Positions 3,278 through 62,908 of a stretch of 64,000 bases of DNA are shown in pieces. Positions within the stretch are counted from its first letter, which is position 1. Each line of letters opens with the position of its first letter. Source of the stretch: Cyanobacterium stanieri LEGE 03274 (GTDB lineage Bacteria; Cyanobacteriota; Cyanobacteriia; Cyanobacteriales; Cyanobacteriaceae); NCBI RefSeq assembly GCF_015207825.1, contig NZ_JADEWC010000001.1, positions 124,001 to 188,000 on the forward strand, written 5' to 3'. The position numbers were made by a program, and so were the translations under genes. The notes below the pieces were generated by a model. The model did not search any database. It saw only the letters and a program-made list of their open reading frames with translations, and was not told the DNA's origin.

Positions 3278-4339
3278 ATGACAACAGCCGTAATTAAACC
3301 CCAAAGCAATAAAAAACAAGCTATTAAAGAAACCCTATTAACCCCAAGATTTTATACTACCGACTTTGGGGCGATCGCCTCTATGGATATATCAAGCCAA
3401 GAAGACGAACTACGAGCGATGTTAATCGAGATGAAAAACGACTATAATCGTAACCACTTCATCAGAGACGAAGACTTTGAAAAAACATGGGATCATGTGG
3501 ATGGAGAAACCCGTGCCGCCTTCATCGAATTTTTAGAAAGATCCTGCACCTCAGAATTTTCAGGCTTTATCCTTTTCAAAGAAATTTCTCGCCGTATCAA
3601 AGACAAAAACCCCCTCCTAGCCGAAATCTTCAGCCTCATGGCAAGGGATGAAGCCCGTCACGCAGGATTTTTAAACAAAGCTATGGGCGACTTTAACATC
3701 TCCCTCGACCTAGGCTACCTCACCAAACATCGAGTTTATACCTTCTTCAAACCCGAATGGATTATTTACGCCGTTTATCTCTCCGAAAAAATTGGCTACT
3801 GGCGTTATATCCTCATGTATCGTCATCTTGAAAAAAATCCCCACTACCAATTTTATCCCCTCTTCAAAAAATTTGAACATTGGTGTCAAGACGAAAGCCG
3901 TCACGGTGACATATTTAACGCCCTTCTCCGTTCCCAAAAATCCATGTGGCAAGGATGGAAAGCCAAACTGTGGGCAAAATTCTTTCTCCTCTCCGTCTTC
4001 GCCACCCATACCCTCACAGTCCACGAAAGAGAAGACTTTTATCAATCCGTGGGTTTAGATGCCAAAGAATATGATCGCCAAGTAATCATCAAAACCAATC
4101 AAACCGCAGCCAAAGCATTCCCCGTCATCCTCGATACCGATAACCCCACCTTTTTTCCCAGACTTGAAAAATGCAACGAACATAACATTAAACTACAAAA
4201 AATCGAGGCATCAAAACAACCCCAACCCATTAAATTTCTGCGTAAAATACCCATCATGATGGCAATCTTTTGGAATCTACTCTGTTTATATCTACTAAAA
4301 TCCCAAGACGCCGAAGAATTAAGAACCACTATTTATTAA
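3278..4339 (+). CDS. acsF: Mg-protoporphyrin IX monomethyl ester (oxidative) cyclase, AcsF/ChlA family
   Basis: Builds the isocyclic ring E of protochlorophyllide from Mg-protoporphyrin monomethyl ester using O2 and a di-iron centre. Length is 353 residues, typical for the family. Both iron-binding motifs are present: E93 with DEARH at 124-128, and E200 with DESRH at 205-209. Start is ATG 3278 (MTTAVIKPQ). Cyanobacteria often have two copies, an aerobic one and a low-oxygen one. The C-terminal third here (LLSVFATHTLTVHER) differs from the MYLND-type sequence I remember for the aerobic and plant enzymes, so this may be the second copy, but I cannot settle that. The neighbour hemF is divergent. 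Confidence 0.92.
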   Translation: MTTAVIKPQSNKKQAIKETLLTPRFYTTDFGAIASMDISSQEDELRAMLIEMKNDYNRNHFIRDEDFEKTWDHVDGETRAAFIEFLERSCTSEFSGFILFKEISRRIKDKNPLLAEIFSLMARDEARHAGFLNKAMGDFNISLDLGYLTKHRVYTFFKPEWIIYAVYLSEKIGYWRYILMYRHLEKNPHYQFYPLFKKFEHWCQDESRHGDIFNALLRSQKSMWQGWKAKLWAKFFLLSVFATHTLTVHEREDFYQSVGLDAKEYDRQVIIKTNQTAAKAFPVILDTDNPTFFPRLEKCNEHNIKLQKIEASKQPQPIKFLRKIPIMMAIFWNLLCLYLLKSQDAEELRTTIY

Positions 4340-4354
4340 ACCACGTTAAATTAG

Positions 4355-4392
4355 TTCCCACTACGAACAAATACCAAAAACAGTGGTGGGAA
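4355..4392. repeat. Inverted repeat between acsF and the convergent PHP gene
   Basis: A 10-bp stem with one wobble pair (4355-4364 with 4383-4392, loop 18) sits between the convergent stop codons. There is no T-run on either side, so it is at best a weak or factor-assisted terminator for the two converging transcripts. Confidence 0.35.
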
Positions 4393-4432
4393 AAATCACT
4401 ACTCACCTGAAATGAAATAACCAAAACAAAAA

Positions 4433-5143
4433 TTAGAGCCTTACCAAAATATTATTACCATGGGTGTCAGTGCCACAAGTGCTATACAAATTATATTTTT
4501 TTGCCATAGATTCAACCACATTCATTTGTTTGGGGCTACACTGCCAAGGTTGAGGATTACCATAAGCATAATAACTCTCTACCCCATCAATACCTAGCAG
4601 ATGTGCTTCAGTGATTAACTCCTCGGCAGGACGACGATAACGGGCAGGATGGGCTAATGCTACCAAAGCTCCTGCGTTGTGGAGACAATTAATAACTTCC
4701 TGTGCTTGGGCGTCATATCCCTCGGGCTTATAGCCTCCTAAATATTTCCGAATAGCCGTAGCGTGGGGATCGAAACCATAGCCTAGTATATGCACAATGG
4801 TGCCGTTTAGCTCGGAGGTAATTTCTACCCCAGTCCAAAGATGAGGAAGGGAAATAGAAGAATTAACCTCTTTTTTTTGTTTCATCCATGATAATGCTCG
4901 ATAAAAACCATCAATGCTGTGATGATCTGTAATGGCTAAACCCTGTAAGCCTATTTGTATGGCTTGTTCAATTAATGATTCGGGGGTTAATTGTCCATCG
5001 GAACAACTGGTATGCAAGTGGAAATTATATCTAAATGGACAACTATCGGGTTGAAGGGTAGCCCATACTTGTTTTAACTTTTCAGTATTTCTGGATGCTT
5101 TGTTTTCAACCCAGAGGGGTTTTTTTTCTTTACTCAATAGCAT
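4433..5143 (-). CDS. PHP-domain metal-dependent phosphoesterase
   Basis: A stand-alone PHP-domain protein of 236 residues. Metal-binding motifs of the family are visible: FHLHTSCSDG (H42, H44, D49), AITDHHS (D73, H74, H75), a GVEIT segment, ALAHPARYRRP, and CGTDTHGNN near the C-terminus. Relatives hydrolyse small phosphate esters such as histidinol phosphate, oligoribonucleotides or 3',5'-bisphosphonucleotides; which applies here cannot be read from the sequence. It starts at ATG 5143 and converges on acsF. No signal peptide is seen, so it is expected to be cytoplasmic. Confidence 0.85.
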   Translation of the reverse strand: MLLSKEKKPLWVENKASRNTEKLKQVWATLQPDSCPFRYNFHLHTSCSDGQLTPESLIEQAIQIGLQGLAITDHHSIDGFYRALSWMKQKKEVNSSISLPHLWTGVEITSELNGTIVHILGYGFDPHATAIRKYLGGYKPEGYDAQAQEVINCLHNAGALVALAHPARYRRPAEELITEAHLLGIDGVESYYAYGNPQPWQCSPKQMNVVESMAKKYNLYSTCGTDTHGNNILVRL

Positions 5144-58283: not shown

Positions 58284-60257
58284 ATGTCACAACCTACAAT
58301 AGAATCAATTTTAAAAGAAAAAAGAACTTTTAAACCCTCCCCAGAGTTTGCGAGTAAAGCACATATCCGCAGTTGGGAAAAATATCAGGAATTATATCAA
58401 AAAGCCTCGGAAAACCCCTCAGAGTTTTGGGGCGAGTTGGCAGAATCAGAACTAGAATGGTTTGAAAAATGGGATCAGGTATTGGATTGGAGTAATCCTC
58501 CTTTTGCGAAATGGTTTGTTAATGGCAAAATCAATATTTCCCATAACTGTTTAGATCGTCATCTCACCACTTGGAGACGCAATAAAGCCGCCATTATCTG
58601 GGAAGGTGAGCCTGGGGATAGTCGTACCCTTACCTATGCTCAGTTACATCGTGAGGTGTGCCAAATGGCTAATGTGATTAAGCAATTGGGGGTTAAAAAA
58701 GGCGATCGGGTAGCCATTTATATGCCTATGATTCCTGAAAGTGCGATCGCCATGTTAGCCTGTGCCAGAATTGGGGCCGTCCATAGCGTCGTGTTTGGCG
58801 GATTTAGTGCCGAAGCTCTGCGGGATAGACTCAACGCAGCCGAGGCAAAATTAGTCATTACCGCCGACGGTGGTTTCCGCAAAGATAAAACCATCGCCCT
58901 CAAACCACAGGTTGATTTAGCCCTCGAAGACAATAAAGCCCCTACCGTAGATAACGTTTTAGTGGTAGAACGCACCAAAGAAAAAGTCCATATGGAAGCA
59001 GGGCGCGATCATTGGTGGCATGACTTACAGGCAGGGGTTAGCGCCCATTGTCCCGCCGAGCCCATGGACAGTGAGGATATGTTATTTGTTCTCTATACCA
59101 GTGGTAGTACGGGTAAACCCAAAGGGGTAGTCCACACCACGGGGGGATATAACCTTTATGCTCACATTACCAGCAAATGGATTTTTGACCTCAAGGATGA
59201 TGATGTTTACTGGTGTACCGCTGATGTGGGCTGGATTACAGGACATAGTTATATCGTTTATGGGCCTTTATCCAATGGTGCTACTACGGTAATGTATGAG
59301 GGAGTGCCACGACCTTCTAATTTAGGTTGTTTCTGGGATGTGGTGGAAAAATATGGGGTAAATATCTTTTATACTGCTCCCACGGCCATCCGTGCTTTTA
59401 TTAAAATGGGAGAACATCACCCCAATGCACGGGATTTATCTTCTCTTCGTCTTTTGGGTACAGTAGGCGAACCCATCAACCCTGAAGCCTGGATGTGGTA
59501 TCACAAGGTAATCGGTAAGGAAAAATGTCCTATTGTGGATACTTGGTGGCAAACGGAAACGGGAGGGGTGATGATTACGGCGCTACCTGGGGCAACTCCC
59601 ACTAAACCTGGTTCGGCTACCCATCCTTTTCCTGGTATTATGGCGGATGTGGTGGATTTGGATGGTAATCCCGTGGCGGATAATCAGGGGGGTTATTTGG
59701 TGGTGAAACATCCTTGGCCTGGAATGATGAGGACGGTATATGGTGATCCTGATCGCTTCCGCAATACCTATTGGGAGCATATTGCCCCTAAAGACGGAAA
59801 TTACCTCTATTTTGCTGGAGATGGGGCGAGAAGGGATGAGGATGGCTATTTTTGGGTAATGGGTCGTGTGGATGATGTGATTAATGTTTCGGGTCATCGT
59901 CTTGGTACTATGGAAGTAGAATCTGCCCTTGTTTCTCATCCTGCGGTGGCTGAAGCTGCGGTGGTTGGTAAGCCTGATGAGGTGAAGGGTGAGGATATAT
60001 GCGCTTTTGTTACCCTTGAGGGGGGTTTTGAACCCCATGACGATTTGGCTAATCAGCTTAAAGCCCATGTGGTACAGGAAATCGGTGCGATCGCCCGTCC
60101 TGCTGAAATCAGATTTACTGATGGGATGCCCAAAACCAGATCAGGTAAAATTATGCGTCGTCTGTTGCGCAGTCTTGCTTCTGGACAAGAAATTGCTGGG
60201 GATACCTCTACTTTAGAAGATCGTAGCGTCTTAGATAAACTAAGAGAGGGCGCATAA
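58284..60257 (+). CDS. acs: Acetyl-coenzyme A synthetase
   Basis: Activates acetate to acetyl-CoA with ATP. 657 residues, normal length. AMP-forming motifs: P-loop [74 protein letters not shown] (quoted in two parts), and the acetylation-site region [14 protein letters not shown] near the C-terminus. Start ATG 58284. Single gene. Acetate assimilation is ordinary in cyanobacteria. Confidence 0.96.
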
Positions 60258-60347
60258 CAAAAATATTAGGGGGTTTAGGTGTTAGGTTTTAAACGCAATA
60301 AATATAAGAGCTAAAAATACAATTTCGTAACATCAGTTAATAATAAA

Positions 60348-62306
60348 TTGGCACAATTCAAATTTATTGATTTATTTGCAGGGATAGGAGGATTTCATCT
60401 AGCCTTCCACGCCTTGGGGGGAAAATGTGTTTTTGCATCCGAAATTGACATTCATGCCCGAAAAACCTATCAACATAACTTCTATTCCCTGAATCCAGAA
60501 TTATTTGAGCACGGAATGTTTAATGATGATATTAGAACAATATCTCCAGATGAAATTCCTGATTTTGACATATTGTGTGCAGGATTTCCTTGCCAACCAT
60601 TTAGCCAAGCAGGATATAAAAGAGGATTTAATGATAATCATAAATCAGAACGAGGAAATCTTTTTTTTAATATAGTTGATATTTTAGAAATTAAAAAACC
60701 AAAAGCATTTTTTTTAGAAAATGTTAGAGGTTTAATAAGTCATGATAAAGGTAAAACATTTAAAATTATTAGACAAATTTTAGAAGAAGAATTAAACTAT
60801 AGTTTTTATTATCAAATAGTTAAAGCATCGGATTATGGATTACCACAATTAAGACCTAGAACTTTTATTATTGGTTTTAGAGATGAAGGATTTTTAAAAG
60901 GATTTAATTTCCCCCCAACTAAACCATTAAAATTCAATATGTCAGATGTTTGGGGCGGAAAATGTTCAAGGGAAATTGGTTTTACTTTAAGGGTAGGAGG
61001 ACGAGGTTCTAATATTAATGATAGAAGAAATTGGGACTCTTATTTAGTTGATGGCCAAATAAAACAGTTGATGCCTGAGCAAGGGAAAAAAATGCAAGGA
61101 TTTCCTGATAGTTTTGAATTTCCTGTATCAAAAAAAGAAGCTATGAAACAGCTAGGAAATAGTGTAGCGGTTGATGCTATTAGGGAATGCGGTAAAAGTT
61201 TATTAGATCACTTAAAGGTTATTGCATTACAAAATTTATATATGAAAAAAACAAAAAATAAGGGAGAATGGACTGAAATATATTCCTTTTTTAAAATTAT
61301 TAATGATAAACAAATTAACTTATCAGATAAAGATTTAAATGATACGCAAAACTACTTTTCTGTCTCTAAAGTATCTACCCTAAATCTAGATCAAGATATA
61401 ATATTGACTGATACTGATTCAGTTTTTATAGAGAATAAAATAACGAAGGAAAAGAGACAAGTTAATATAAAAGAACTTATTAATAAAGATATTTTACAAA
61501 ATTTAAGTCATCAGATTCAACAGAATAAAGGTACATTTGAAATTGATGATATGATAGCAATACAAAATAAGTTAGGAATCTCTATTATTAAAGGAGGTAC
61601 AAGCAATCAAAAAGCCGATATTGTTTTGGATATAAGGAAAAAAAACTTTTATAAAATTAATGAAGGATTTGGTATTAAGTCTTATTTAGGCAATAAACCA
61701 ACGTTATTAAATGCTTCTGGAAATACTAATTTTATTTTTAAGGTTAACAATTTATCAACTGAATCTTTAGATAGCATTAATGATATTAATAGCCTCAAAT
61801 CTCGTATTAGTAAAATAATTGAACTGGGTGGTAATTTTTGTTTTCATCGAGTGGAAAAAGAAACCATGGCTTACAATCTTAAAATAATTGATTCAATGAT
61901 GCCTGAAATTATAGCTCAAATGTTATTAGAATTTTTTGTAGGAAGAAATAATATGTTATCTAAAAATTTAGCATCTATTTATCATAAAAAATTATGTGAA
62001 AATATAAGTGATGATTTACCAGTTTTAGCAATCAAAGTAAAAAGATTTTTAGTGGGAATTTTATTAGGCTTTTTTGCTGGGACAAAATGGGATGGTAAAT
62101 ATTTGTCGAATGGTACAATAATAGTGAAAGAAGATGGAGAACAAGTAGCTTTTCATATCATTGATCTTCATTCTTTAGAAGATTATTTATTTCAAAACAT
62201 TGTTTTTGATACTCCTTCTACTACGAGACATCGCTATGGTAAATTGTTTTTAGAAAATGATGGTAATTTATATTTTAAATTAAATTTACAACTAAGATTT
62301 CGCTAG
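60348..62306 (+). CDS. Fused DNA cytosine-5 methyltransferase and HpaII-family restriction endonuclease
   Basis: 652 residues from TTG 60348 (no ATG nearby). Residues 1-295 form a C5 methyltransferase: motif I DLFAGIGGFHLAF (8-20), motif IV with catalytic C82 in GFPCQPFSQAG, motif VI FFLENVRGL (E124), motif VIII QLRPRTFIIG (167-176), motif X GNSVAVDAI (270-278). Between VIII and X the short specificity region GGRGSNINDRRNWDSYLVDG resembles CCGG enzymes. Residues 303-650 resemble the HpaII restriction enzyme family: KGEWTEIYSFFKIIND (305-320), KADIVLDIR (422-430), FGIKSYLGNKPTLLNASGNT (441-460) and FLVGILLGFFAGTKWDGKY. Both halves seem complete in one frame, so this may be a one-protein restriction-modification system. 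Specificity for CCGG is inferred. Confidence 0.85.
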   Translation: MAQFKFIDLFAGIGGFHLAFHALGGKCVFASEIDIHARKTYQHNFYSLNPELFEHGMFNDDIRTISPDEIPDFDILCAGFPCQPFSQAGYKRGFNDNHKSERGNLFFNIVDILEIKKPKAFFLENVRGLISHDKGKTFKIIRQILEEELNYSFYYQIVKASDYGLPQLRPRTFIIGFRDEGFLKGFNFPPTKPLKFNMSDVWGGKCSREIGFTLRVGGRGSNINDRRNWDSYLVDGQIKQLMPEQGKKMQGFPDSFEFPVSKKEAMKQLGNSVAVDAIRECGKSLLDHLKVIALQNLYMKKTKNKGEWTEIYSFFKIINDKQINLSDKDLNDTQNYFSVSKVSTLNLDQDIILTDTDSVFIENKITKEKRQVNIKELINKDILQNLSHQIQQNKGTFEIDDMIAIQNKLGISIIKGGTSNQKADIVLDIRKKNFYKINEGFGIKSYLGNKPTLLNASGNTNFIFKVNNLSTESLDSINDINSLKSRISKIIELGGNFCFHRVEKETMAYNLKIIDSMMPEIIAQMLLEFFVGRNNMLSKNLASIYHKKLCENISDDLPVLAIKVKRFLVGILLGFFAGTKWDGKYLSNGTIIVKEDGEQVAFHIIDLHSLEDYLFQNIVFDTPSTTRHRYGKLFLENDGNLYFKLNLQLRFR

Positions 62307-62395
62307 TTTATTTAATAAATATTAAAGAGATAAAATTTTATGATAAAATCATGTTATCCTCATAGGATTTAGCTATAGTAAAATAATAATATGCT

Positions 62396-62908
62396 ATGAA
62401 TCGTAAAACATTTTTTGGTTTAAGTATAGGTGCGATTTTAAAAGTAAGTTTTGCTCCCACTTTTTTAATGGCATTAATCAAACCCGAACAAAAATCAGCG
62501 GGTAATAGTAATAACCAACAAAAAATTACTCTTTCTGATAACCAATGGCAAGAAAAATTAACCCCTGCCCAATACCATATACTAAGGGAAGAAGGTACAG
62601 AAAGACCTTTTTCTAGTGAGTTAAATGATGAAAAACGCAAAGGCACTTTTGTTTGTGCTGGATGTGAATTACCCTTGTTTAAATCCAGTATGAAGTATGA
62701 TAGCGGTACAGGTTGGCCTAGTTTTTATGATACGATCGCCCTTAACATAGAAACAAAAAAAGACTTTAAACTAATCATACCTCGTACCGAGTACCACTGC
62801 CGAAGATGTGGAGGCCATCAAGGTCATGTCTTCAATGATGGACCTGCACCCACAGGCAAACGTTACTGTAACAACGGTTTAGCCCTTAAATTTATACCTG
62901 AAACCTGA
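62396..62908 (+). CDS. msrB: Exported peptide-methionine (R)-S-oxide reductase
   Basis: 170 residues. An N-terminal hydrophobic segment (MNRKTFFGLSIGAILKVSFA) acts as signal or anchor. The catalytic domain has zinc cysteines CAGC (C87, C90) and CRRC (C135, C138), GWPSFYD, HVFNDGPAPTGKRYC with the catalytic C158 in RYCNN, and ends GLALKFIPET. It reduces methionine-R-sulfoxide. It stands just before msrA, which also carries a signal peptide, so both probably repair periplasmic proteins. Confidence 0.93.
   Translation: MNRKTFFGLSIGAILKVSFAPTFLMALIKPEQKSAGNSNNQQKITLSDNQWQEKLTPAQYHILREEGTERPFSSELNDEKRKGTFVCAGCELPLFKSSMKYDSGTGWPSFYDTIALNIETKKDFKLIIPRTEYHCRRCGGHQGHVFNDGPAPTGKRYCNNGLALKFIPET

Follow-up and report, generated by a model that had tools for sequence, protein, structure and literature searches.

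Establishment of a Type IIP restriction-modification (RM) system in a new host is usually explained by the methyltransferase (M) being made before the nuclease (R). Among the methyltransferases of such systems, that of Eco29kI is of the C5 type. In the engineered enzyme RM.Eco29kI, a cytosine methyltransferase and a Type IIP nuclease are joined in one functional chain; this chain is man-made, has the order R then M and carries a GIY-YIG nuclease, and its authors predicted that natural derivatives could exist (PMC3039593). Type IIC is defined in PMC4081073 by nuclease and methyltransferase activities in one protein. Most Type IIC/IIG enzymes described in that source have an N-terminal PD-D/ExK nuclease and a gamma-class methyltransferase on the same polypeptide and cut away from their site. 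Natural fusions of RM components also include C-protein/REase chains such as NsoJ138I, in which a regulator, and not a methyltransferase, is fused to the nuclease (PMC3850674). In the HpaII-type systems of a katablepharid and of Algibacter, described in PMC8099122, the HpaII-family nuclease adjoins a cytosine methyltransferase encoded by a second gene, and methylation of CCGG is reported for both M proteins. In searches of open full-text articles, we found no natural chain of a C5 methyltransferase and an HpaII or Type IIP nuclease. The single-chain RM systems found there were Type IIC/IIG, adenine-type or engineered.

We analyzed a gene in a stretch of 64,000 nucleotides from Cyanobacterium stanieri LEGE 03274, hereafter the window. 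The gene forms one frame without an internal stop, as the preliminary description had stated, and the genome search located it at G000:C1. From the TTG start back to the nearest upstream in-frame stop, the frame contains no ATG. Pfam places a C5-cytosine methyltransferase domain first on the chain, followed by a full-length HpaII-family endonuclease, and PADLOC agrees, listing a type II methyltransferase and a type II restriction enzyme. This is the only match to the RE_HpaII profile in the genome. In a model of the full-length chain (pLDDT 82.8, pTM 0.61), the last M helix reaches residue 298 and directly abuts R. The domain architecture is that of Type IIC, an assignment read from the domains, and differs from the Type IIG layout of an N-terminal PD-D/ExK nuclease followed by a gamma-class methyltransferase: here the methyltransferase is of the C5 class and N-terminal, and the nuclease is HpaII-type and C-terminal. 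Compared with the katablepharid and Algibacter systems, the window gene gives one chain where those have two genes, and its M, which belongs to the short-target-domain clade described below, may also differ from theirs. We consider it likely, with a probability of roughly 0.75, that the gene is a complete RM system on one polypeptide, in which M most likely methylates CCGG and R cuts unmethylated CCGG.

Features of the fused gene and its surroundings (positions in the window)
Feature	Position	Strand	Basis
Single-chain RM gene, 652 aa, TTG start, TAG stop	60348..62306	+	frame reading, genome search
N-terminal C5-cytosine methyltransferase domain, residues 1-288; catalytic C82 at 60591-60593	60348..61211	+	Pfam PF00145, alignments; domain end by eye
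Run of eight T inside the GNLFF codons of M	60661..60668	+	sequence reading
Short target-recognition region of M, about residues 182-235	60891..61052	+	alignment by eye, M tree
Variable linker, residues 289-298; end of predicted helix 275-298	61212..61241	+	alignment, full-length model
Internal ATG (Met299), where separate R genes start	61242..61244	+	comparison with separate R genes
C-terminal HpaII-family endonuclease domain, residues 299-652; putative catalytic D424 (61617-61619) and K444 (61677-61679)	61242..62303	+	Pfam PF09561, alignment, model, fold comparison
Segment of about 2.08 kb that sister genome G056 lacks between acs and msrB	60289..62370		genome comparison

The M half matched the Pfam DNA_methylase profile at 1.7e-73 in two stretches (the best covering residues 4-181). 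Five stretches are invariant across four aligned fusions: DLFAGIGG (8-15), PCQ with C82, ENV (124-126), QLRPR (167-171) and GNSVA (270-274), which we take to be the named C5-methyltransferase motifs. With the profile match and the PCQ, ENV and QxRxR motifs, M belongs to PF00145, and the motifs proposed earlier for the N-terminal part, C82 included, are indeed present. By eye, its target region is roughly 45 residues shorter than that of long-domain M proteins such as L029 and L127. In a tree of 37 M rows (M.HpaII itself was absent), the window M falls in a 17-row clade of short-target-domain enzymes (support 100/100, branch 1.92) set apart from the majority of M proteins encoded in separate HpaII systems; it does not group with the long-target-domain M proteins that are usual beside separate HpaII nucleases. 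The preliminary description held that both halves resemble HpaII-type enzymes, which is true of R and not of M. In this tree the fused rows of the 17-row clade may form one group or several. The clade also holds L132, in which an HpaII-family R gene lies a few bases from a short-domain M gene without being fused to it, and the M proteins of L018 and G259, with no HpaII-family R seen beside either; the type of M/R pairing is therefore not tied to fusion.

Two of these M genes have settings of their own. On the viral-collection contig L018, the M gene (3992-4891) is 62% identical to the window M half and has no HpaII-family gene seen beside it; it is possibly an anti-restriction gene. In L118 (3448-5398, genome G259), a 335-aa frame that matched no family above the cut-off precedes a short-domain M of the window's M clade, and may encode a nuclease. 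Neither this neighbor nor the two neighbors of L019 gave a Pfam family above the cut-off or a convincing PADLOC match, so that no specificity can be borrowed from them. A plasmid search with the target-domain region alone returned no match at 1e-3.

The R half matched RE_HpaII over the whole profile (2.8e-98, 330 bits against a cut-off of 25; residues 304-651, profile positions 1-359 of 359). The profile search that had been proposed as a check on the C-terminal half was thus positive, and the outcome named as refuting, the lack of any endonuclease match, was not seen. D424 and K444, singled out earlier as site residues, are kept in 32 of 32 aligned R domains and also in a separate 10-row alignment, and are probably catalytic. 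The two are 20 residues apart, the same spacing as between the active-site residues of MspI, an enzyme that cuts CCGG. A model of the R domain from a 14-row input (pLDDT 85.1, pTM 0.81) was compared by VIA-align with 997 Foldseek chains. MspI ranked first (Z 6.2, 179 residues, 5.4 A), and HinP1I second (Z 5.6 and 4.9), the following row scoring 3.0 and all rows lying below Z 8. Foldseek alone gave nothing at E <= 0.001 with this model, and sequence searches of solved structures found no relative, either with the single sequence (E <= 10) or with the 10-row profile (E <= 1). The modelled R domain perhaps has the MspI/HinP1I fold, and the leading ranks of these two enzymes, at modest Z, lend some weak backing to the PD-(D/E)xK fold anticipated for it. 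MspI and HinP1I differ from the window protein in being separate proteins. In PMC4081073, MspI is counted among the PD-D/ExK enzymes and HinP1I is described as monomeric, with reference to a paper whose title claims similarity of HinP1I to monomeric MspI.

We next consider how widely the fused design occurs. RE_HpaII matches were found in 9 of 386 genomes of a phylum sample (3 of the 9 being fused frames), in 4 of 15 genomes of a family sample (3 of 4 fused) and in 21 of 388 genomes of an order sample, where 11 of the 21 were intact M-R fusions. Ten intact genes, the window's included, share the same design, form one clade and come from three genera of two families (G000, G056, G388, G070, G561, G564, G531, G414, G524 and G484). 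G588 has an intact fusion of another type. Seven copies are damaged or remnants (G493, G557, G538, G545, G502, G571 and G109), and three genomes have separate M and R genes (G590, G559 and G312, with R broken in G312). In a small-genome cyanobacterial family, 6 of 117 genomes had a match, none of them fused and two being fragments. Another fused frame lies on the viral-collection contig L121, with a frameshifted near-copy in L122. Since nine intact homologues of the same clade are present in other genomes, the window fusion is not an assembly accident, and the frameshift or assembly error named at the outset as the refuting outcome was not seen. That a sequencing or assembly artefact joined two genes is accordingly extremely improbable for the window; it could apply to the fused L127, which is known from a single contig and lacks one base of the short M/R overlap of the separate L126.

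The damaged copies bear on whether the R half is active. It might be inactive, the gene acting as a solitary methyltransferase, and in several relatives a broken R does stand beside an open M: through an insertion in L010, an in-frame deletion in L147, and in L148/L151. We regard this as quite unlikely for the window gene, where R is full length; none of the 10 intact clade members has lost D424 or K444. In addition, selection on R is implied by the R halves of G000 and G070, which have diverged to 54% identity while both stay open and full length. The clade member L010 comes from a Zetaproteobacteria MAG and has its R interrupted by a reverse-strand frame. Note that the same interrupted R gene occurs on two contigs of MAG NORP148, L010 and L011, with different left ends, and one of these contigs may be misassembled.

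In L145 and L146 (G493 and G557), the R frame is whole and the M frame changes at or just after the GNLFF codons, a site whose window counterpart is the run of eight T; the G493 contig ends inside M. The cause may be slippage (phase variation), decay or an assembly error. An active R should not allow such a state, so these two copies count against an active R unless the shift in M is an assembly error or R is silent. The remnant L150 (G571) joins the opening codons of M in frame to the final codons of R and reads as the trace of an internal deletion in a former fusion.

Since M belongs to the separate short-target-domain clade, CCGG cannot be read from it. The specificity had originally been deduced from the resemblance of both halves to HpaII-type enzymes; the M part of that argument falls away and the R part stands, with its RE_HpaII match. 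The case for CCGG as the probable site is made by the R family, by CCGG depletion and weakly by the fold, not by M. CCGG is the most depleted of the 16 palindromic 4-mers in the window, with 15 occurrences where 97.9 are expected. In a set of 15 genomes, CCGG stood at 0.20, 0.23, 0.29 and 0.11 of expectation in four carriers and at 0.38-0.89 in the 11 others, and among 136 strand-merged 4-mers only CCGG placed the four carriers below all 11, a separation that is weaker than it looks given the relatedness of the genomes. For all CCGG counts, between 43 and 144 kb of each genome was sampled, and for G559 two stretches overlapping by about 3.4 kb were both counted.

In a wider set of nine carriers against 13 genomes that lack the gene or retain only a remnant (G538, G559 and G312 left out), CCGG was again the best separator (0.889), followed by ACTG (0.863), with mean differences of -2.14 log2 for CCGG and -0.12 log2 for ACTG. 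The CCGG value drops to 0.889 because three genomes of genus g19 without an intact gene are as low as carriers: G462 (0.10), G473 (0.07) and G502 with its remnant (0.21). The gene or a remnant is found in 11 of 13 genomes of g19, and its earlier presence in those lacking it is likely. G538, with M open and R shortened, had CCGG at 0.04 of expectation. G588, with its separate type of fusion, had 0.07, and three relatives whose M and R genes are separate, one of them with a broken R, had 0.66-0.76. Fused carriers ranged from 0.02 to 0.29 (n=9) and separate carriers had 0.24, 0.25, 0.47, 0.66 and 0.76 (n=5); because these ranges overlap, the stronger depletion with fusion is only a trend. The lowest tally in the sampled host genomes was 1 site in 80 kb. 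Another CCGG system may be present in carriers; a search for MspI-family matches gave 0 of 10 genomes, but the search control failed too. The deamination products CTGG and TCGG gave no clear reading of which cytosine is methylated, as both share 3-mers with the depleted CCGG.

Might the target be a sequence related to CCGG? The short-target-domain M clade is split off by its long branch (1.92), HpaII nucleases pair with more than one type of M, including a distant M on a long branch of the M tree in a Lactococcus plasmid, and GGCC and CGCG are also depleted in this genome family. We nevertheless judge a related target unlikely: in the four carriers examined for this, CCGG is depleted whichever base precedes it on the 5' side, CCGG is the best carrier separator, and GGCC and CGCG do not separate carriers. 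As an observation in its own right, GGCC stood at 0.04-0.25 and CGCG at 0.13-0.40 of expectation in G000, G056, G388, G387, G119, G109, G187 and G145, fusion or not, which points to other restriction systems or to history.

The fusion appears to have arisen more than once. A tree built from 32 R domains requires at least three changes of the fused state, and three are forced by its starred branches. The window lies in a fused R clade of 13 rows (support 100/99), whereas the fused G588 adjoins the separate G590 and G559 (100/100), and the fused L127 adjoins the separate L126 (100/100). The simplest reading of this tree suggests three separate fusions, one of them resting on the single contig L127, which could be a sequencing error for that reason. 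With a root inside the fused clade, the count would instead be one split and two fusions. In a separate observation, at L013 (1848-4062) on a Lactococcus petauri plasmid, the HpaII-family nuclease gene overlaps by 8 bases an M gene of a further, distant type; the HpaII nuclease family therefore changes M partners.

We compared the site of the window gene with that of its sister copies. In G056, acs and msrB, the window gene's two neighbors, are 342 bases apart with no RM gene between them, and the fusion of G056 is at another place in its genome. The G000 gene resembles the G056 and G388 copies at the DNA level from 5 bases and 1 base, respectively, ahead of the TTG to 3 bases past the stop; the loci compared had 591 bases before and 1494 after the gene. 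Given these limits, what the sister copies have in common is the reading frame; their flanks, and with them any promoter, are not shared. By consensus scan, the 148 bases that precede the gene lack a promoter-like site on the + strand, and nothing resembling a terminator was found anywhere in the scanned interval, 60200-62500.

The junction suggests a second start in the frame. Separate R genes mostly start with a Met a few residues before NKGEW. Among the 12 members of the window's subclade (a 12-row M clade), 10 have a Met at -5 from NKGEW, and the other two have the ATG one codon (L136) or two codons (L012) further upstream; the codons preceding it are variable. At the beginning of the fused frame, the first ATG, GTG or TTG is TTG or GTG in 11 of the 12 members and ATG in L139. 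The kept ATG at the R start, combined with the TTG or GTG at the fusion start, makes a free R product possible. One frame could then yield two products, the M-R fusion from the TTG and free R from the internal ATG, an operon-like output from a fused frame. This is a tentative reading, to which we give somewhat less than even odds. An ATG at the R start is also present in the fusions of G588, L121 and L127 (preceded by AAGGAGG, kept in L127), and the fused relatives L145, L146 and L148, which have no junction ATG, have a TTG after AAGGAG instead. However, free R exceeding M should be harmful, a clear Shine-Dalgarno sequence is absent by eye in most subclade members, and structural constraints may explain why the junction Met is kept. 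Low RNA structure at the internal ATG was rejected as proof of a start: synonymous recodings gave a mean z of 0.51 over 11 genes, the low structure being mostly accounted for by the amino acids.

We propose that a single transcript, perhaps read through from the upstream gene, would give the M-R chain, the N-terminal half methylating CCGG and the C-terminal half cutting it when unmethylated. On entry into a new host, the order of synthesis may give protection, the ribosome completing M before R. The weak start codon would keep output of the chain low, a host short of CCGG sites would pay less for incomplete methylation, and the internal ATG may yield some free nuclease. According to PMC12707154, Type IIC chains may be methylating monomers before becoming dimeric nucleases; if R is an MspI-like monomer, this monomer-to-dimer brake would be missing. 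That both activities are compatible with one chain is seen in the engineered RM.Eco29kI, for which PMC3039593 reports 80% methylation, threefold lower cutting than by the separate enzymes and 100-fold weaker phage restriction. A bolder, rather doubtful extension is that the gene is a recurrent naked one-gene selfish RM element. Its mobile unit would be the frame alone, with no promoter or regulator of its own, producing a weakly started M-R chain plus free nuclease from the internal ATG; self-cutting would have driven the near-loss of CCGG from the host, and chain order and site loss would replace transcriptional timing.

In conclusion, the window gene is a predicted, Type IIC-like single-chain system whose combination of parts is new within the literature searched. 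A compact CCGG enzyme with coupled activities may result. Fusion would be a repeated evolutionary step, in line with the prediction made from the engineered enzyme in PMC3039593. With both activities on one chain, establishment needs a solution other than methyltransferase-first timing, and a natural one-chain system that has apparently arisen more than once offers material to test such solutions.
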